Shown here one piece after another: positions 18,746 through 34,081 of a stretch of 50,820 nucleotides of DNA. Origin of the DNA: Acidimicrobiales bacterium (GTDB lineage Bacteria > Actinomycetota > Acidimicrobiia > Acidimicrobiales > Iamiaceae); NCBI GenBank assembly GCA_025463365.1, contig JAOBWM010000042.1:1-50820 (forward strand). The letters run 5' to 3'. Position numbers and translations under genes: made by a program. The notes beneath the pieces are model-generated. The model was not told where the DNA came from. It was given only the letters and a program-made list of their open reading frames with translations, and made no database searches. Position 1 is the stretch's first letter. The number at the start of each line of letters is the position of its first letter.

Positions 18746-21172
18746 ATGTTCCGACGTTCGTTCCGACACGTCCTGTTGGCGGTGCTCGCCACCGCGGCTG
18801 GACTGGCCATCGTGGCCGGCACCGGAGGGGGCCCGGCGGGGGCCGCCACGGTCACCCAGGCGCTCGACTGCGGCGTCGGCGGCTCGCAGACGATGACCGT
18901 CCTGGCGACGGCACCCGCCACGGTCACCACGGGTGGCAGCTACACCGTGCAACTCGACTCCGGCAGCGGCAAGGCCGACGGGGCCGAGATCAAGAACATG
19001 GTCACCACGTTCCAGGCGCCTGTCGGCAGCACCCTCGTGCCCGGCTCGGCCACCCTCATCGGCACCGGCACCGGCACCGTCGGCAACGTGACCGCCAAGA
19101 TCACCGGCACCACGGTCTCCATCACCGTGCCGGGACCCATCGCCAACGGCGCCACCTTCGACCCACCACCGCTGCAGTTCCAGCTCCAGGCCACCGGCGC
19201 GGTCGGAACCGTCCTCGCGGTCAAGGCCCGCCAGAGCCCGGCCTACACGCTGACCGCGGCCGGCTCCTTCAACGTCACGTGCAACGCGGTCAGCCCGCTG
19301 TCGTCGTTCACCAGCACCACGATCCAGGCCGCGGCGACCACCACGACGGCCCCCACGACGACAGCCTCGACCACGACCACCACCAGCGGGACGACCACCA
19401 CGAGCGGGACGACCACCACCGCCGGCAACACCACCACGACGCACCCGACCACCACGACCGCCGGACCCACGACCACCACGACCACCGCTCCCCCGGTGAT
19501 CACCACGCAATCGTGGTCTCCGGGAACCGCATGCGGCGTGCCCCAAGCCATCAGCGCGCCAGCCAACACCACCGCCGTCAGCATCGTGGTGGCCGGTGGC
19601 AAGGGCGGCAAGGGCGGCTCGCAGGCATCCAGCTCGACGTACAACGGCGGCGCCGGCGGCCAGGCCGCGGCGACCTTCCCGGCCTCGCCGGGCCAGCAGT
19701 TCTCCGGCGTCGTCGGGTGCAACGGCGCCAACGGCGTGAACGGCGGGACCAACTCCGCCAATGCGGGCGGGTTCTCCCTCGGCGGCGGGTCCGGGGCCGG
19801 ATCGGTGGTCCTGCTCCAGACCGGCGCCAGCGGCGGTGGCGGTGGCGGGGCGAGCGCAGCCTGTGCCGGCCCCAACTGCGCGTCTGGCAGCGGTACGCCC
19901 CTCGCGGTCGGCGGCGGTGGCGGCGGTGCCGGCGTCAGCAACTGTGCCGGGACCCCGGCCGGTCCGGGCGGTGCCTCGGGCACTGGCTCGAGCGCCAACG
20001 GTGACAGCGGCCACGGCCCCTCGGGCGCCAACGGCAGCGGCGGTGGCAACTCCGGTGGGAGCTCGGGCGGCGGCGGAGGGGGGACCGGTGGCGTCAACAC
20101 CGACCTCGCCGTGGGTGATGGCGGCAACGCCCCCTCGACCAGCCCCCTCGACGGCTTCGGCGTGAGCGTCGTGGGCGGCGGTGGCGGTGGCGGATATGCC
20201 GGCGGCAAGCAGGGCGCCAACACCAACACCGGCTGCAAGGGCGCCGGCGGTGGAGGCGGAGGTTCCTCGTGGATCGCCAACGCGGCGACGAGTGCGTCGT
20301 TCGCGGCGGCCTCGACCCCGTCGGTCACGTTGACGTTCACCATCGTCACCAACCCGACGACCACCACGACCTCGACCTCCACCACGACGTCAACGTCGAC
20401 GTCGACGTCGACGTCCACCAGCACGAGCACCACGACGTCGACGACGGCGCCGACAACCACGAGCAGCACCACCACGAGCACGACCCAGCCCGTCTGCACG
20501 CCGGATCTGGTGCCGTTCGCGTCCTCGGCGCTCGCCGTCCAGCAGCAGTACGTCGACTTCGAGGGCCGGATCCCCTCGGCCGGTGAGAACACCGCCTGGG
20601 TCGGACCCATCGCGAGCTGCGCGACCACGATCGATGCCCTCGACCTCAGCCTGCTGCCGACCGACCAGTCCGCCGACGATGCCCGGCTCGTCCGGCTCTA
20701 CCTGGCCTTCTTCAAGCGGCCACCGGACCACGACGGCTTCGCCTACTGGCAGGCCACGCTCGACAAGGGTCGCGGCCTCGTGAACGCGGCGCTCAAGTTC
20801 GCCCAGTCCTCGGAGTTCAAGCGCACGTACGGCTCGCTCTCCAACCCCGACTTCGTCGAGCTCGTCTACCAGGACGTCCTCGGCCGGGACTCCGATCCCG
20901 ACGGCAAGACGTTCTGGGTCACCCGCCTCGACAACAAGACGAAGAACCGTGGCGACGTGATGGTCAACTTCTCGGAGTCGTCGGAGAACACCACGAAGAA
21001 GCACGACCACGTCCAGGTGTTCCGCCTGTACCGGGCGATGATGCAGAAGTTCCCGTCGAAGACGGCCTACCTCACCCTGCTCGACCCGGTCCTCGCCGCC
21101 ACCAGCACCCTCAGCGACACCGCGCACACCATCCGCCACAGCGCGGCCTACGCCACCCGCATCAGCGCCTGA
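18746..21172 (+). CDS. Large secreted glycine-rich surface protein with C-terminal DUF4214
   Basis: 808 residues. Signal peptide MFRRSFRHVLLAVLATAAGLAIVAGTGGGPAGA; an N-terminal beta-rich domain (35-190) resembling actinobacterial DUF11-like or surface domains; a Thr-rich linker (about 195-250); a glycine-rich domain (about 252-530) with repeated GGGGGG blocks and six Cys; a second Thr/Ser linker (about 537-585); and a C-terminal DUF4214 domain (about 590-808: VRLYLAFFKRPPDHDGFAYWQ, FVELVYQDVLGRDSDPDGKTFW). DUF4214 is common on very large extracellular proteins. No sortase motif or membrane anchor is seen, so it is secreted or held non-covalently. GGGGGA before ATG 18746 supports the start. 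Confidence 0.85.
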   Translation: MFRRSFRHVLLAVLATAAGLAIVAGTGGGPAGAATVTQALDCGVGGSQTMTVLATAPATVTTGGSYTVQLDSGSGKADGAEIKNMVTTFQAPVGSTLVPGSATLIGTGTGTVGNVTAKITGTTVSITVPGPIANGATFDPPPLQFQLQATGAVGTVLAVKARQSPAYTLTAAGSFNVTCNAVSPLSSFTSTTIQAAATTTTAPTTTASTTTTTSGTTTTSGTTTTAGNTTTTHPTTTTAGPTTTTTTAPPVITTQSWSPGTACGVPQAISAPANTTAVSIVVAGGKGGKGGSQASSSTYNGGAGGQAAATFPASPGQQFSGVVGCNGANGVNGGTNSANAGGFSLGGGSGAGSVVLLQTGASGGGGGGASAACAGPNCASGSGTPLAVGGGGGGAGVSNCAGTPAGPGGASGTGSSANGDSGHGPSGANGSGGGNSGGSSGGGGGGTGGVNTDLAVGDGGNAPSTSPLDGFGVSVVGGGGGGGYAGGKQGANTNTGCKGAGGGGGGSSWIANAATSASFAAASTPSVTLTFTIVTNPTTTTTSTSTTTSTSTSTSTSTSTSTTTSTTAPTTTSSTTTSTTQPVCTPDLVPFASSALAVQQQYVDFEGRIPSAGENTAWVGPIASCATTIDALDLSLLPTDQSADDARLVRLYLAFFKRPPDHDGFAYWQATLDKGRGLVNAALKFAQSSEFKRTYGSLSNPDFVELVYQDVLGRDSDPDGKTFWVTRLDNKTKNRGDVMVNFSESSENTTKKHDHVQVFRLYRAMMQKFPSKTAYLTLLDPVLAATSTLSDTAHTIRHSAAYATRISA
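20385..20418 (+). repeat. Hexamer repeat (ACGTCG)n in Thr/Ser linker
   Basis: About five copies of a six-base unit, with end variants, encoding Ser-Thr dipeptides in the second linker of the surface protein. It is in frame, so linker length can drift without breaking the gene. Confidence 0.8.
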
Positions 21173-26856: not shown

Positions 26857-27474
26857 TCAGCCGCCGAGGGAGCGGGTCAGGGAGTCGAGGAGGGCTCGAC
26901 GGCGGGAGCGGAGCCAGGCGAGGTCGGGGGCGAGGCCGAGGTCGGCGCGGAACTCGGCTTCGGTGGCGATGCCGACCACCGTCGCCCCGGCTGCGAGGAG
27001 GACGTTGCGGAGGCGGGCACGGTCGGCGTCGGTGGCGGCGATGCCCTCGCGCGCCAGCGCGGCGACGGCGACGTCGACCAGGGGCTCGGCGGCGGTGGCG
27101 AGTCGGGTGGAGGCCGGCGGGCCGAGGCGGCTGATCTCGCGGACGACGGCCAGCAACTCGGGATGGGTGGTCCCCAAGCGGAACGTGGCATCGACCACCG
27201 CGACCATGCGATCGGCGAGTGCGGGGCCGGTGCCCGCCACCGCCTCGAGCAGCCGACCGCCGAGGTCGGCCACGGCGTGGTCGACGACGCCGAACAGCAG
27301 TTGCTCCTTGGAGGGGAACCAGTAGAGGAGCGTCTGCTTGCGAACACCGACCTCGGCCGCCACCGAGTCGAGCGAGGTGGCCTCGACCCCCCGGTCCGCG
27401 AAGGCGTGGAGGGCGGCAGCGAGGATCCGGTCCCTCGTCGAACCGATCGCCTGCTCACGGGCTGCCTCGGACAT
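26857..27474 (-). CDS. TetR-family transcriptional regulator
   Basis: 205 residues. N-terminal HTH: STRDRILAAALHAFADRGVEATSLDSVAAEVGVRKQTLLYWFPSKEQLLFGVVDHA, with recognition helix around VRKQTLLYWF. The C-terminal part is all-helical ligand-binding sequence (LLAVVREISRLGPPA). GGAGG eight bases before ATG 27474 supports the start. It is divergent from the acyl-CoA reductase gene, and a perfect inverted repeat lies in the 60-bp gap, so it probably represses that operon and itself. The ligand may be an acyl-CoA or a pathway intermediate (inference). Confidence 0.92.
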   Translation of the reverse strand: MSEAAREQAIGSTRDRILAAALHAFADRGVEATSLDSVAAEVGVRKQTLLYWFPSKEQLLFGVVDHAVADLGGRLLEAVAGTGPALADRMVAVVDATFRLGTTHPELLAVVREISRLGPPASTRLATAAEPLVDVAVAALAREGIAATDADRARLRNVLLAAGATVVGIATEAEFRADLGLAPDLAWLRSRRRALLDSLTRSLGG

Positions 27475-27510: not shown

Positions 27511-27526
27511 TCTACCAAGTGGTAGA
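27511..27526. promoter_or_regulatory. TetR operator: TCTACCA-AG-TGGTAGA
   Basis: Perfect 7-bp arms around AG, centred in the 60-bp gap between the tetR start (27474) and the reductase start (27535). It overlaps the likely -10 (TAGACA, 27523-27528) six bases before GTG 27535, and a TAGAGA/TAGAGT pair on the other strand, so binding would block both promoters. Confidence 0.7.
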
Positions 27527-27534
27527 CACTCTAC

Positions 27535-29886
27535 GTGATCGCCGACGACCTGGCTGGGAAGCGCATCGCCGTCACCGGCTCCACCGGCTTCCTCGGCACC
27601 GCCCTCGTGGAGCGCCTGATCCGCTCGGTGCCCGACTGCGAGCTGGTGCTGCTGATCCGCAAGGGCCGCATGCGCACCGTCGAGCAACGGGCCCAGCGGG
27701 AGATCTTCAAGAACAACTGCTTCGACCGCATCCGCGAGCAGGTCGGCGGCAAGGCACCCTTCGACGAGCTCGTGGCCCGCCGGGTCACGGTCATCGAGGG
27801 CGACGTCGGGACCGACGGGCTCGGCCTCACCGCCGAGGGCCGGGCCCTGTTGGCCGGCTGCGACATCGTCATCCACTCGGCCGCCACCGTGAGCTTCGAC
27901 TCCCCCATCGACCTCGCCGTCGAGGTCAACCTCCTCGGGCCCACCCGCATCGCCCAGACCCTTCAAGATCTCGAGGTCACGCCGCACCTCGTCGCCGTCT
28001 AGACCTGTTACGTCGCCGGCAACCGCCGCGGCGCCGCCCCCGAGATCCCCGTCGACGAAAGCCCGTTCTGGATCACCGACATCGAGTGGAAGCGCGAGGT
28101 CGAGAGTGCCCGTCGCGTCCGGGCCGATGCCGAGGCCGCCAGCCGGATCCCCGAGCAGCTGGCCACGTTCATGGTCGACGCCCGCGAGGAGCTCGGTGGT
28201 GCCGGCACGCCGCTGCTCGCGGCCAAGAGCGAGAGCCTCCGCAAGGACTGGGTCAAGGCCCAGCTGGTCGACGCCGGCCGCTCCCGCGCCGCCTCGCTCG
28301 GCTGGCCCGATGCCTACGCCATGACCAAGGCGCTCGGCGAGAAGGCCCTCGGCGAGAACCACGGCAACGTACCCGTGAGCATCGTGCGGCCCGCCATCAT
28401 CGAGTCGGCCTGGTCCGAGCCGGTGCCGGGCTGGATCCGCGGGTTCCGGATGGCCGAGCCGGTGATCATCTCCTACGCCCGCGGCTTGCTGAAGGAGTTC
28501 CCGGGCGTTCCCGAGGGCACCGTCGACGTGATCCCGGTCGACCTCGTGGTGGGCGCCATCATCGGCGTCGCGGCCCGCGGCCCGCTCAACGAGGACGGCT
28601 CGCCCGACATCACCCAGGTCGCCTCCGGTTCGGCCAACCCCCTCAAGTACGAGCGCCTCGTCGGCCTCGTGCAGAGCTGGTTCAGCGACCACCCGCTGTA
28701 CGACGCCGAGGGCCAGCCCATCGCGGTGCCCGACTGGGGCTACACGTCGCGGGACCGGGTGCAGAACCAGCTCACGCGAGCCAAGACCATGCTCGAGCGC
28801 ACCGAGAAGGCGATCGGATCGCTCCCCTTGCGCGGCAAGCAGGCCGCGTGGTCGGCCAAGGTCGAGGAGCAGCGCGAGACGGTCGGTCGGGCGCTCACCT
28901 ACGTGGAGCTGTACGGCGCCTACACGGCGTGCGAGGCGATCTACGGCGTCGACCACCTGCTCGCCCTCCACGAGTCGATGGCCCCGGCGGACCAGGGCGA
29001 GTTCGGCATGGACCCGCGGATCATCGACTGGGACCACTACGTCCACCAGATCCACCTCCCGTCGGTCGTCGAGCACGCCCGCGTCCGCACCGACGGCAAG
29101 CGGGGCCGCAGCGAGTCCCGCTCGGATCGGCTGCGCCGCCAGGTGCTCGCCCCCGAACGCCAGATGGCGGCGTTCGACCTCGAGAACACCCTCATCGCTT
29201 CGAACGTGGTCACCAGCTACGCCTGGCTCGCCAGCCGTCGTCTCGACCGCGATGACAAGCTCCGCCTCACCGCCAAGCTCGTGCGAGAGGCTCCGAGCCT
29301 GCTGCGCATGGACAAGGCCGATCGCAGCGACTTCCTGCGCTCCTTCTATCGCCGCTACGAGGGCGCGCCGGTGGCCCAGATCCAGGAGGACTCGGCCGAG
29401 ATGCTGTCGCAGCTCATCTTGACCAAGAGCTTCCCCGCCGCCATCCGCCGGGTGCGCGAGCACCGGGCCCTCGGCCATCGCACGGTGCTCATCACCGGTG
29501 CACTCGACTTCGTCGTCGAACCGCTGCGACCCCTGTTCGACGACATCGTGTCGGCGTCGCTCGCCATCGGCGACGACGGCCGCTACCTCGGCCAGATGCT
29601 CGACGTGCCGCCCACCGGTGAGAGCCGGGCCTCGGCCCTGTTCGACTTCGCCGCCACCCACGACATCGACCTCTCCGAGTCCGTCGCCTACGCCGACTCC
29701 TCGAACGACCTCCCCATGCTCGAGGTCGTCGGGTTCCCGGTCGCCGTGAACCCCGAGATCCGCCTGGCCAGCCTGGCCCGCAAGCGCGGCTGGCTCGTCG
29801 AGGAGTGGTCGAAGGCCCCCGGCTTCAAGCCGCCCGCCCTCCCCCTCGCCCCCCGCCGCCACCTCACCAAGCCGGCCCCCCGATGA
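27535..29886 (+). pseudogene. Fatty acyl-CoA reductase (extended SDR) fused to HAD-IB phosphatase, interrupted by an amber codon
   Basis: One continuous frame of 784 codons with TAG at codon 156 (28000-28002). Before it: MIADDLAGKRIAVTGSTGFLGTAL (NAD(P) site), VTVIEGDVG and DIVIHSAATVSFDSPI, as in FAR / thioester-reductase SDRs. The stop falls in HLVAV[stop]TCYVAGNRRG, where the family has Ser-Thr-x-Tyr. After it: Tyr261-AMT-Lys265 (YxxxK) and VSIVRPAIIESA, then a helical region and a HAD domain from residue 545 (FDLENT, VLITGALD, YADSSNDLPML), with Glu550 replacing the usual second Asp of motif I. The last in-frame restart is ATG 28171, without the NAD site. Codon use is normal throughout, so the change is recent, a read error, or read through. 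Confidence 0.85.
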
Positions 29887-29915
29887 CGCCGGCCCCGATC
29901 GCCCCGACCCCACCG

Positions 29916-29960
29916 ATTTGTTGCGATCCTGCACCGACACGGTTCGCGATCGACACAAAT
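29916..29960. repeat. 45-bp inverted-repeat element, copy 1
   Basis: ATTTGT...ACAAAT ends (extending to CGATTTGT / ACAAATCG at 29914-29962) with GCGATC and CGATCG inside. 44 of 45 bases match copy 2, which starts 72 bp later. Confidence 0.9.
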
Positions 29961-29987
29961 CGCAGCGCGCTCCGCCGGACCTCACGG

Positions 29988-30032
29988 ATTTGTGGCGATC
30001 CTGCACCGACACGGTTCGCGATCGACACAAAT
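29988..30032. repeat. 45-bp inverted-repeat element, copy 2
   Basis: Differs from copy 1 only at the seventh base (T to G). The pair fills most of the 199-bp gap between the reductase/HAD frame and the dehydrogenase gene. Confidence 0.9.
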
Positions 30033-30085
30033 GGGGATGGGGCGTCAGGGTCGACCAGTGGGCTGGGCGAGCGGGGGGTGCGGCG

Positions 30086-31243
30086 ATGAAGGCGTTGCGG
30101 TTCGAGCGCAAGCCGGGGAGGTACGTGGCGGCAACGGTCGCGGGGCGGCTCAGCCCGGGCAAGGGCGCGTCGGTCGGGCCGCTGAAGCTGAAAGACGTCG
30201 ACGAACCCAAGCTGCCGGCCGACGACTGGGTGCGCCTGCGCCCGCGCCTGGCCGGGATCTGCGGGTCGGACCTCGCGACCATCGACGGGCACTCGAGCCA
30301 CTACTTCGAGCCGATCGTGTCGTTCCCGTTCACGCCCGGCCACGAGGTCGTCGGCAACCTCGACGACGACAGCCGCGCCGTGCTCATCCCGGTCCTGTCC
30401 TGCGTGACCCGCGGGATCGAGCCCATCTGCCCCGCCTGCGAGGCCGGACGCACCAACCACTGCGGCCGCATCGCCTTCGGCCACCTCGAGCCCGGCCTGC
30501 AGAGCGGCTACTGCAGCGACACCGGCGGTGGCTGGTCCACCGACATGGTCGCCCACCCGAGCCAGCTCCTCGCGGTGCCCGACGCGCTCAGCGACGAAGC
30601 GGCCGTCATCGTCGAGCCCACCGCCTGCGCGGTCCACGCTGGACGCGTCGTCGCCGCCATGGGCCCCAAGGCCACCGTCGCGGTGATCGGTGCCGGAACG
30701 CTCGGCCTGCTCACCATCGCCGCGCTGCGGTCCGAAGCCACCGTCGGGACGCTCGTCGCCACGGCCAAGTACCCGCACCAGAAGTCGCTCGCCACGACGC
30801 TCGGCGCCGACCGGGTGGTGGCTCCCAGTGAGCTGGCCCGCCTCGTTCGGACCCTCACCGGTGCGTGGGTGCTCGACGGCGGCCAGCTCACCGACGGCGT
30901 TGACCTCGTGGTCGACTGCGTCGGCACCGAAGCGAGCCTCGCCCAGGCCCTGCAGGTCGTCGGGCCCGGCGGCGAGGTCCTCGTCGTCGGCATGCCCGGC
31001 CACACCACCCTCGACCTCACCTCCCTCTGGCACCGCGAGACCGCCATCCGGGGTTGCTACGCCTACACCCGACCCGACTTCGAACGGGCGCTCGACCTCG
31101 TCGCCGAGGCCGACCTGGCCCGCCTGGTCAGCGCCACCTACCCGCTCGCCCGCTACACCGAGGCCATCGAGCACGCAGCGGGCGCCGGCGCCCGCGGTGC
31201 CGTCAAGATCGCCTTCGACCTCCGCAAGAAGGATCGCCGCTGA
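30086..31243 (+). CDS. Zinc-type alcohol dehydrogenase (MDR superfamily)
   Basis: 385 residues. Catalytic-zinc motif GICGSD (Cys59), GHE (His86-Glu87); structural-zinc Cys set partly changed (C115-PA-C118-x7-C126, with Cys106 perhaps the fourth ligand); Rossmann site VAVIGAGTLGLLTI; then DLVVDCVGTEASLAQALQVVGPGGEVLVVG. It oxidises an alcohol or reduces an aldehyde with NAD(P). Its stop TGA overlaps the ATG of the LarA-like gene by one base, so these two are translationally coupled. Placed after an acyl-CoA reductase, a role on a long-chain alcohol or aldehyde is a reasonable inference. Preceded by a G-rich Shine-Dalgarno region. Confidence 0.9.
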   Translation: MKALRFERKPGRYVAATVAGRLSPGKGASVGPLKLKDVDEPKLPADDWVRLRPRLAGICGSDLATIDGHSSHYFEPIVSFPFTPGHEVVGNLDDDSRAVLIPVLSCVTRGIEPICPACEAGRTNHCGRIAFGHLEPGLQSGYCSDTGGGWSTDMVAHPSQLLAVPDALSDEAAVIVEPTACAVHAGRVVAAMGPKATVAVIGAGTLGLLTIAALRSEATVGTLVATAKYPHQKSLATTLGADRVVAPSELARLVRTLTGAWVLDGGQLTDGVDLVVDCVGTEASLAQALQVVGPGGEVLVVGMPGHTTLDLTSLWHRETAIRGCYAYTRPDFERALDLVAEADLARLVSATYPLARYTEAIEHAAGAGARGAVKIAFDLRKKDRR

Positions 31244-32835
31244 TGCCCCGTCCCGGTTTCGTGCTCGACGTCGACAAGTCGACGCCCCCGATCCTCTTCC
31301 ACCACGGCGAGGGGTTCCGTCTGGAGAAGCTGCCGGCCGGACGCACCCGCGTGATCTACCCGGGCGAGCCGCTCGAGCCGCTGGAGGACGTCGAGGCCGA
31401 GATCCGCAAGGCCCTCGCCGAACCGCTCGACAGCGAACCGCTCACCGCGCTGCTCAAGCCGGGCATGAAGCTCACGATCGCGTTCGACGACGTGTCGCTG
31501 CCCCTGCCCCAGATGAAGCGGCCCGACATCCGCCAGCGCGTGATCGAAGCGGTGCTGGACCTGGCCGCGTCCGCCGGTGTCGACGACGTCCACCTGATCG
31601 CGGCGCTGGCCCTGCACCGCCGCATGACCGAGGACGAGCTGCGCCAAGCCGTCGGCGACCGCGTGTACGACGCCTTCGCCCCGTCCGGTGCCCTCTACAA
31701 CCACGATGCCGAGGACCCCGACAACCTCGCGTTCCTGGGCACCACGCCCCACGGCGAAGAGGTCGAGATCAACAAGCGGGCCGCCGAGAGCGACCTGTTG
31801 ATCTACGTGAACATCAACATCGTCAGCATGGACGGTGGCCACAAGTCCACCGCCACCGGCCTGGCCAGCTACCGCTCGATCAAGCACCACCACAACGTGT
31901 CGACGATGCACAACTCCAAGTCGTTCATGGACCGCCACAACTCCGAGCTGCACCACTCGAACTGGCGCATGGGCAAGGTCATCGCCGATGCCGGCGTCAA
32001 GGTCTTCCAGATCGAGACGACGATCAACAACGACACGTTCGGCCAGGACGGCCCCATGTCGGTGCTGGCCAAGCGCGAGTGGGAGTGGACGGCCAAGGAC
32101 CGCGTCACCTTCGTGGGCATGCAGCAGGGCCTCAAGCGGCTCTCCTCCCCCACCCGGCGCAAGATCTTCCAGTCCCACCGGGCGCCGTACGGCGTCACCT
32201 CGGTCACCGCCGGTGCCATCGAGCCGGTGCACGAGCGGACCCTCCAGCACTGCTTCGACCAGCACCTGGTCGAGGTCGAAGGCCAGACCGACATCTTGAC
32301 GATGGGCCTGCCCTACATCTGCCCGTACAACGTCAACTCGATCATGAACCCGATCCTCGTGATGTGCCTCGGGCTCGGCTACTTCTTCAACATGTACCGG
32401 GGCCGGCCGCTCGTCCGCGAGGGCGGCGTGCTGATCATGACCCACCCCACGCCGTGGGAGTTCCACCCCGTCCACCACCCCAGCTACATCGACTTCTTCG
32501 AGCAGGTCCTCTCCGAGACCACCGACCCGGCGATCATCGAGGAGACCTTCGAGAAGCAGTTCGCCGAGGACGAGTGGTACCGCCACCTGTACCGGACGAG
32601 CTACGCCTACCACGGCGTCCACCCCTTCTACATGTGGTACTGGGGTGCCCACGCCCTCAAGCACCTCGGCCGGGTGATCATCGTCGGCGGCGACCCGCGC
32701 GCCGTGAAGCGCCTCGGCTTCAAGAGCGCCTCCACCCTCACCGATGCCTTCGAGATGGCCGAAGACGTCGTCGGCCCCGAGCCGACGATCACCCACCTGA
32801 AGAACCCGCCCATCGTGATGGCGGATGTGAAGTGA
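31243..32835 (+). CDS. LarA-like (DUF2088, nickel-pincer lactate racemase superfamily) protein
   Basis: 530 residues, about 100 longer than lactate racemase. N-terminal domain: LKPGMKLTIAFDDVSLPLP (residues 71-89), LALHRRMTEDELRQAVGD (His125), YNHDAEDPDNLAFLGTTPHGEEVEINK. Then MDGGHKSTATGLASYRSIKHHHN (Lys201, His215-217), matching the LarA segment whose Lys holds the nickel-pincer nucleotide and whose His binds nickel. At the DxTRP site of LarA the sequence is DVSLP, so the substrate-binding Arg is Leu86. A C-terminal extension (about 390-530) rich in Tyr, His and Trp is unlike LarA. Relatives racemise or epimerise 2-hydroxyacids; activity here is uncertain. No larB, larC or larE in the window. 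AAGGA upstream of ATG 31243. Confidence 0.82.
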   Translation: MPRPGFVLDVDKSTPPILFHHGEGFRLEKLPAGRTRVIYPGEPLEPLEDVEAEIRKALAEPLDSEPLTALLKPGMKLTIAFDDVSLPLPQMKRPDIRQRVIEAVLDLAASAGVDDVHLIAALALHRRMTEDELRQAVGDRVYDAFAPSGALYNHDAEDPDNLAFLGTTPHGEEVEINKRAAESDLLIYVNINIVSMDGGHKSTATGLASYRSIKHHHNVSTMHNSKSFMDRHNSELHHSNWRMGKVIADAGVKVFQIETTINNDTFGQDGPMSVLAKREWEWTAKDRVTFVGMQQGLKRLSSPTRRKIFQSHRAPYGVTSVTAGAIEPVHERTLQHCFDQHLVEVEGQTDILTMGLPYICPYNVNSIMNPILVMCLGLGYFFNMYRGRPLVREGGVLIMTHPTPWEFHPVHHPSYIDFFEQVLSETTDPAIIEETFEKQFAEDEWYRHLYRTSYAYHGVHPFYMWYWGAHALKHLGRVIIVGGDPRAVKRLGFKSASTLTDAFEMAEDVVGPEPTITHLKNPPIVMADVK

Positions 32836-33112
32836 CCTCTCGTCACTCGTTCGGCTGCGCCTCACTCCGTTCCTCGAACGGCACCCCGGCTGGTGCGGCT
32901 GTCGCCGCCCGGCTCGTTCAGCAACGCACGGCTTCGCCGCACGTTCCTGGGTGGGGGCGCTCCGCGGGCTCCGCCCCCCACGCCCCCCGGGGCTCGCTTC
33001 GCTCGTTCGCACCAGTTGCTCGCGCTCGCGCGGCCTCGGTCCTCGTTGCTTGCGGCCACCCCTTCGGGGCTACGCCCCGGACCCCCCACTCCGTCGTCGA
33101 GGGTGGCTCCTG
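32836..33112. other. Hairpin-dense spacer inside the operon
   Basis: 277 bp with no gene but several short inverted repeats with TTCG-type loops, such as CGGCTTCGCCG, GGGGCGCTCC...GGCTCCGCCCCCC and CCGGGGCTCGCTTCG, and CCTTCGGGG followed by CTACGCCCCGG. Such a run of stem-loops could end or stabilise the upstream mRNA, or be an array of degenerate palindromic repeats. Confidence 0.6.
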
Positions 33113-34081
33113 ATGGCGGAACGCAAGGGGCTGGAGAAGGGGTTGGTGGCGTTGCAGAAGGTTCGGGCGCGGGTTCCGGCGGTTCGGGAGGTGGTGCGCA
33201 AGGCGGACTTCCCGTACCGGGCGCCGACGGTGCCGCTCACGGTCGAGCCGGCGCCCGCAGAGCAGACGCTCGGGGCCCACTACGACTCGGACTGGGCTCG
33301 CAAGCTGCCCGCTCGCTACGCACGCTTCTTCCTGACCGAGGGCATGGTCCGGCCGATCATCGCCGGGCTGGCCCAGCCCGAGCGGCGCGGCCTCGACCGC
33401 CTCACCGACCTCGACGGGCCGGCGATCTTCGCGGCCAACCACCACAGCCACCTCGATGCGGGCCTCCTGATCACGTCGCTCCCCGAGCCGCACCGCCACC
33501 AGGTGTTCGCCGCCGGAGCTGCCGACTACTTCTTCGACAGCAAGCTCAAGGCCATCTCCTCGGCCCTCGTCCTCAACGCGATCCCGTTCGAGCGGGCGAA
33601 GGTCGGCCGCCGATCGGCCGTCCAGGCCGCTGAACTGCTGCAGGCGGGGTGGAGCATGGTGATCTTTCCCGAGGGCGGCCGATCGCCCGACGGGTGGGGC
33701 CACGAGTTTCGCGGCGGCGCCGCCTACCTGTCGATCCGCAACGGCGTCCCCGTCGTGCCCGTCCACATCGCCGGCACCGGGCGGATCATGCCGAAGGGCA
33801 GGAGCCGACCGAAGCCGAGCCACACGGTGGTCACCTTCGGGACACCCATGCAACCCCACGAGGGCGAGCGCCCGCCGGCCTTCACCCTGCGCATCGAGGC
33901 CGCCGTGGCCGCCCTGGCCGACGAAGCCACCTCCGACTGGTACTCGTCCCGCCGCCGCGCCGCGGCCGGCGAGACGCCTTCGCTGTCCGGCCCGTCCTCT
34001 GGCGCCTGGCGACGCACCTGGGCCCTCACCGCCCAGCGCAAGCGGCGCAGCAGCGCCACGCGCTGGCCGGACCTCGACTGA
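33113..34081 (+). CDS. PlsC-family 1-acyl-glycerol-3-phosphate acyltransferase
   Basis: 322 residues. Acyltransferase motif I is NHHSHLDAG (HX4D), motif II region VLNAIPFERAKVG, motif III VIFPEGGRSPDGWG, and motif IV VPVVPVHIAGTG. It transfers an acyl chain from acyl-CoA or acyl-ACP to a glycerophosphate or similar acceptor at the membrane. The N-terminal 70 residues (KGLEKGLVALQKVRARVPAVREVVRK) and a basic C-terminus are extra. GAGGGTGG before ATG 33113. It is last in the line reductase/HAD, dehydrogenase, LarA-like, acyltransferase, separated from the third by the hairpin spacer. Confidence 0.9.
   Translation: MAERKGLEKGLVALQKVRARVPAVREVVRKADFPYRAPTVPLTVEPAPAEQTLGAHYDSDWARKLPARYARFFLTEGMVRPIIAGLAQPERRGLDRLTDLDGPAIFAANHHSHLDAGLLITSLPEPHRHQVFAAGAADYFFDSKLKAISSALVLNAIPFERAKVGRRSAVQAAELLQAGWSMVIFPEGGRSPDGWGHEFRGGAAYLSIRNGVPVVPVHIAGTGRIMPKGRSRPKPSHTVVTFGTPMQPHEGERPPAFTLRIEAAVAALADEATSDWYSSRRRAAAGETPSLSGPSSGAWRRTWALTAQRKRRSSATRWPDLD

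Follow-up and report, generated by a model that had tools for sequence, protein, structure and literature searches.

An in-frame TAG at the catalytic serine codon of a fatty acyl-CoA reductase/HAD fusion gene in an uncultured Acidimicrobiales bacterium: recent nonsense mutation or consensus error

INTRODUCTION

What does it mean when a stop codon stands exactly where an enzyme should have its catalytic serine, in a gene that looks otherwise intact? Such a codon might be read as sense, it might divide the gene into parts that work separately, it might mark a loss of function, or it might be a wrong base. The question is raised by a gene in a 50.8-kb stretch of DNA (the window, the whole stretch that was analyzed), which forms contig 105 in a 219-contig draft assembly of 4.31 Mb, 98.4% complete and with 2.65% estimated contamination. 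The host is an uncultured Acidimicrobiales bacterium belonging to the same genus as Aquihabitans sp. G128, for which there is a finished genome. That a stop falls on a catalytic residue is no evidence, on its own, that the codon is recoded, and the surrounding gene, its relatives, and the decoding machinery of the host were considered together.

RESULTS AND DISCUSSION

The interrupted gene and its relatives

Read in frame, the gene contains exactly one internal stop, the TAG at codon 156 (positions 27988 to 28014 read ctc gtc gcc gtc TAG acc tgt tac gtc), and is open on both sides of it, as an earlier note on this DNA had described. Features of the region are collected in Table 1. When the gene is aligned with its relatives, no gap opens at the TAG; the alignment spans 783 residues at 84 to 88% identity. 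Against the G128 orthologue, identity is 89% before the stop, 86% after it, and 87% overall. The homology of both pieces to one family is far beyond chance. The two NAD_binding_4 matches are complementary, covering profile positions 1 to 124 before the stop (101 bits) and 160 to 258 after it (66.6 bits; cut-off, 20.1), and with the stop read through they merge into a single match of 179.4 bits over positions 1 to 258. The HAD-IB domain matches TIGR01490 over its full length with 114.5 bits, above the cut-off of 98.3. The proposed architecture, an acyl-CoA reductase fused to a HAD hydrolase, is thus borne out by the NAD_binding_4 halves and by TIGR01490 and PF12710.

Table 1. Features of the interrupted gene and its surroundings (window coordinates)
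Feature	Position	Strand	Remarks
TetR-family regulator, divergent	26857-27474	-	Intact, 205 aa
Palindrome TCTACCA-AG-TGGTAGA, probable TetR operator	27511-27526	.	Between TetR gene and reductase
Fatty acyl-CoA reductase (SDR type)/HAD-IB hydrolase fusion, interrupted	27535-29886	+	784 codons including final TGA
NAD_binding_4, N-terminal half (Rossmann part, TGSTGFLG)	27571-27966	+	Pfam; sole part remaining in 155-aa product
In-frame TAG, codon 156, replacing catalytic Ser of S-T-x-Y	28000-28002	+	Reading frame and alignments
First in-frame start (ATG) past the stop	28171-28173	+	No Shine-Dalgarno-like sequence
NAD_binding_4, C-terminal half with YAMTK	28264-28560	+	Pfam
C-terminal "Sterile" domain of fatty acyl-CoA reductases, weak match	28885-29052	+	28.6 bits, under Pfam cut-off of 35.4
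HAD-IB hydrolase domain	29167-29724	+	PF12710, TIGR01490
Zn-dependent alcohol dehydrogenase, downstream	30086-31243	+	ORF listed at 29918-31243; likely start at 30086
ORF with lactate racemase N-terminal (LarA-like) domain, downstream	31054-32835	+	
PlsC-type acyltransferase, downstream	32951-34081	+	

In an alignment with the solved fatty acyl-CoA reductase 7eoz, which extends through residue 524, the TAG falls on the serine of "VSTAY." The catalytic serine of the family motif S-T-x-Y is therefore absent from the host gene as assembled, and the codon in its place is TAG. The other expected motifs are all retained, in agreement with the earlier note. The glycine-rich NAD motif begins at residue 14, YxxxK is present after the stop as YAMTK at residues 261 to 265 (Tyr261 and Lys265; positions 28315 to 28329), and the DxDxT-like motif of the HAD domain occurs at residue 548 as DLENT, with Glu replacing the second Asp.

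Comparison of the orthologous codon, a check that had been suggested, gave serine in all 24 other genomes read, and the relatives' sequence at the site is HLVAV-S-TCYVAGNRRG. Ten of these genomes are from the same genus, where the codon is TCC in seven, AGC in two, and TCG in one. Five less close genomes have AGC, and nine further members of the class have TCG, TCC, or TCT. When 296 genomes of the class were searched, the gene turned up in 74 others, none of which has a premature stop. Two apparent exceptions were rejected: an internal TGA in genome G223 (query position 775) is that gene's natural C-terminal end, and the two pieces of a seemingly split gene in G298 share one open frame. No gene split at codon 156 was found among the 74 genomes, and relatives carrying two separate genes divided at this point, which would have spoken against an interruption in the host, were therefore not encountered. 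Several genomes of the same order are without a clear homologue.

The gene is single copy in the host, with no second intact copy elsewhere in the genome, and it is the sole full-length fatty acyl-CoA reductase there. Other NAD_binding_4 matches in the host are partial, and since the same profile also finds matches in 14 of 14 control genomes, they are probably general SDR proteins.

A lone stop in a gene that shows no decay

We compared the interrupted gene with its intact relatives by a hand-written Nei-Gojobori count. Its dN/dS values against them were 0.08 to 0.23, and intact pairs among themselves gave 0.05 to 0.27. Amino acid changes unique to one lineage were equally ordinary, numbering nine in the interrupted gene and nine, nine, and eight in the intact genes of G009, G010, and G002, respectively. 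The earlier remark that the sequence does not decay after the stop is consistent with these figures. With no surplus of amino acid change, a long-standing pseudogene is ruled out, although by our estimate any loss within about the last tenth of the host branch would escape detection. Both the TetR gene on the opposite strand and its conserved operator are intact. The interrupted gene carries a disabling change and its orthologues are intact, as in a young pseudogene.

A lone stop, no decay, and no means of recoding (see below) together indicate an isolated nonsense change, either a recent loss or a consensus error. The earlier note had named both, and the absence of decay and the intact relatives support that pairing. 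We lean toward the first, namely that the sampled strain very recently acquired a nonsense mutation of the young-pseudogene type, as the somewhat more probable account. Under this account, translation would stop after Val155 and release a 155-residue Rossmann fragment, which matches the earlier expectation of a 5' product with the NAD site only. The fragment would be without Ser156, Tyr261, Lys265, and the HAD domain, and reductase and hydrolase activities would thus presumably both be lost. The promoter region, operator, regulator, and downstream genes would all be untouched, and the loss would be so recent that relaxed selection has left no mark. As in other young bacterial nonsense pseudogenes, there is a single nonsense codon and no other decay; what sets this case apart from them is that we only infer the presence of the mutation in the organism, beyond the consensus sequence. 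The conservation of the gene across the class makes its fixed loss less expected and counts against a mutation, and the order members that have no clear homologue suggest that loss can be survived in the group.

The route to TAG bears on the same point. The earlier note had supposed a single base change from TCG, and this is possible, TCG being the commonest serine codon in the gene (20 of 48). However, the step is unproven: TCC predominates at the site within the genus, and if TCC was ancestral, two changes would be needed to reach TAG.

The principal alternative is that the TAG is an artifact of the consensus, either a base error or the allele of a minority strain in a draft that is probably metagenome derived, and that the organism's gene is intact. 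We regard this as a plausible reading that falls somewhat short of an even chance. It draws on the division of the assembly into 219 contigs and its estimated contamination, and on the fact that the gene is otherwise fully constrained, is intact in every other genome, and is defective in one codon only. The quality of the assembly argues in the other direction. We screened for errors by comparing about 75 G128 ORFs with 0.77 Mb of the host genome (the window plus 0.72 Mb sampled outside it), and the TAG at codon 156 was the only convincing in-frame stop among the gene pairs. Other candidate stops, and one case resembling a frameshift, looked on inspection like antisense, over-extended, or tail-divergent ORFs. 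This result and the position of the site in the middle of the contig indicate that the assembly is not generally error ridden, but a screen of about 75 genes would still be compatible with a few wrong bases per genome. From sequence alone, a real mutation and a draft consensus error are indistinguishable.

As an observation on base composition, the tetranucleotide CTAG is strongly avoided in this genome: the window has 7 occurrences versus about 130 expected from base composition, and the 716-kb sample has 119 (about 8 per 50 kb). One of the seven in the window (27999 to 28002) arises through the TAG itself, which does not discriminate between error and mutation.

Restart or read-through would not readily restore function

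A restart past the stop could in principle yield a working HAD protein at the expense of the reductase, and the earlier note had pointed to the first in-frame ATG as the place. The HAD domain after the stop is complete, and a second ATG, at 29164, directly precedes it. However, neither ATG has a Shine-Dalgarno-like sequence before it, no relative has a split gene, and the reductase half downstream of the stop is conserved as well as the rest of the gene, when it would be expected to fade under long use for the HAD domain alone. A product begun at the first ATG would be without both the NAD site and the catalytic serine. There is thus little to support a useful restart there, and we consider a functional split very unlikely.

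Read-through of the TAG, whether tolerated or programmed, would yield some full-length protein, and the frame that is open and without decay on both sides would accommodate it. The decoding machinery of the host does not. No CUA anticodon was present among the 47 tRNAs recognized in the host genome; that the assembly missed such a tRNA is unlikely, although not impossible, because it is about 98% complete. Release factor RF1 is present, above its curated cut-off. TAG ends 96 of 476 ORFs (about 20%) predicted with a simple ORF filter in the 0.77 Mb that includes the window, and it is an ordinary terminator in this genome. On these grounds, amber recoding or a suppressor tRNA was rejected. Nor is the TAG conserved, as no relative has a stop at this codon and hence there is no conserved recoding signal; a reductase with a near-cognate residue inserted in place of the catalytic serine would mostly be inactive. 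Programmed recoding can in effect be dismissed, and the earlier suggestion of tolerated read-through, which did not hold up, must be rated as more improbable than a functional split. Least credible of all is a real TAG with low-level read-through by a near-cognate tRNA or an error-prone ribosome, in which the codon would set the dose of a scarce full-length protein.

The tRNA census also turned up second copies of tRNA-Trp (70 nt, a weak match at 32 bits), tRNA-Asp, and tRNA-Cys clustered on another host contig (C183, 3295 to 3554; L092, 46 to 308), possibly from a mobile element or a contaminant.

Likely function and regulation of the intact gene

By family, the intact gene should reduce long-chain acyl-CoA to an aldehyde or alcohol. 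A role in lipid synthesis is suggested by its fused HAD-IB domain and by an acyltransferase encoded three genes downstream. The gene resembles the fatty acyl-CoA reductase family (NAD_binding_4 plus Sterile; PDB 7eoz) in its Rossmann motif, S-T-x-Y position, YxxxK, and C-terminal similarity, and differs in having TAG at the catalytic serine and a HAD-IB domain fused C-terminally, the latter as in its Acidimicrobiales relatives. The HAD-IB part resembles other such hydrolases in its full-length match above the NCBIfam cut-off and differs from them in being fused behind a reductase and lying downstream of a stop. G128 and other Acidimicrobiia have orthologues in the same order with the TetR, alcohol dehydrogenase, and acyltransferase genes, and these orthologues are intact at codon 156. 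A more distant parallel is the elb ether-lipid operon of Myxococcus xanthus, in which ElbD has fatty acyl-CoA reductase-like and acyltransferase domains and ElbB is a separate HAD protein (PMC9131029). There, too, a reductase-like domain, an acyltransferase domain, and a HAD protein occur together in one operon; unlike the host protein, ElbD carries acyl-CoA synthetase and ACP domains in addition and lacks a fused HAD (PMC9131029). By analogy, the operon may serve as a lead, and as a lead only, to the function of the fusion protein.

If the preferred reading, a recent nonsense mutation, is correct, this strain would have just lost a reductase that is widespread in its order and would be a natural knockout for the function of the fusion protein. 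The case looks like an ordinary mutation or base error and not a new mode of gene reading; whether a young loss-of-function allele or a single wrong base, it carries little weight in itself.

Of more use is the probable TetR operator that precedes the gene. In each of the four whole genomes searched, the pattern TCTACCA-NN-TGGTAGA has a single occurrence, and most of the relatives read carry the palindrome at the corresponding position, across genera. It is likely to be the dedicated operator of the divergent TetR gene. The gap between it and the GTG start of the reductase gene is just 8 bases, which suggests that the mRNA may be leaderless and that the repressor may cover the -10 region. The surrounding region is syntenic in the genus; besides the fusion gene, it holds genes for an MFS transporter, a D-Ala-D-Ala-ligase-like protein, TetR, alcohol dehydrogenase, the LarA-like protein, and the PlsC-type acyltransferase. 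No known RNA elements were found with Rfam between 26000 and 34500.

Two kinds of repeat lie near the gene. Just 3' of it is a tandem pair of 65-nt units (29896 to 29960 and 29968 to 30032) that are 89% alike, with no further copies in the 0.72-Mb host sample. Between the LarA-like and acyltransferase genes is a GC-rich dispersed repeat of about 170 bp (32837 to 33006), with two more copies in the host sample and many in G002 and G010; its single-strand fold is not unusual. Elsewhere in the window, positions 18746 to 21172 encode an 808-residue protein with two DUF4214 stretches.
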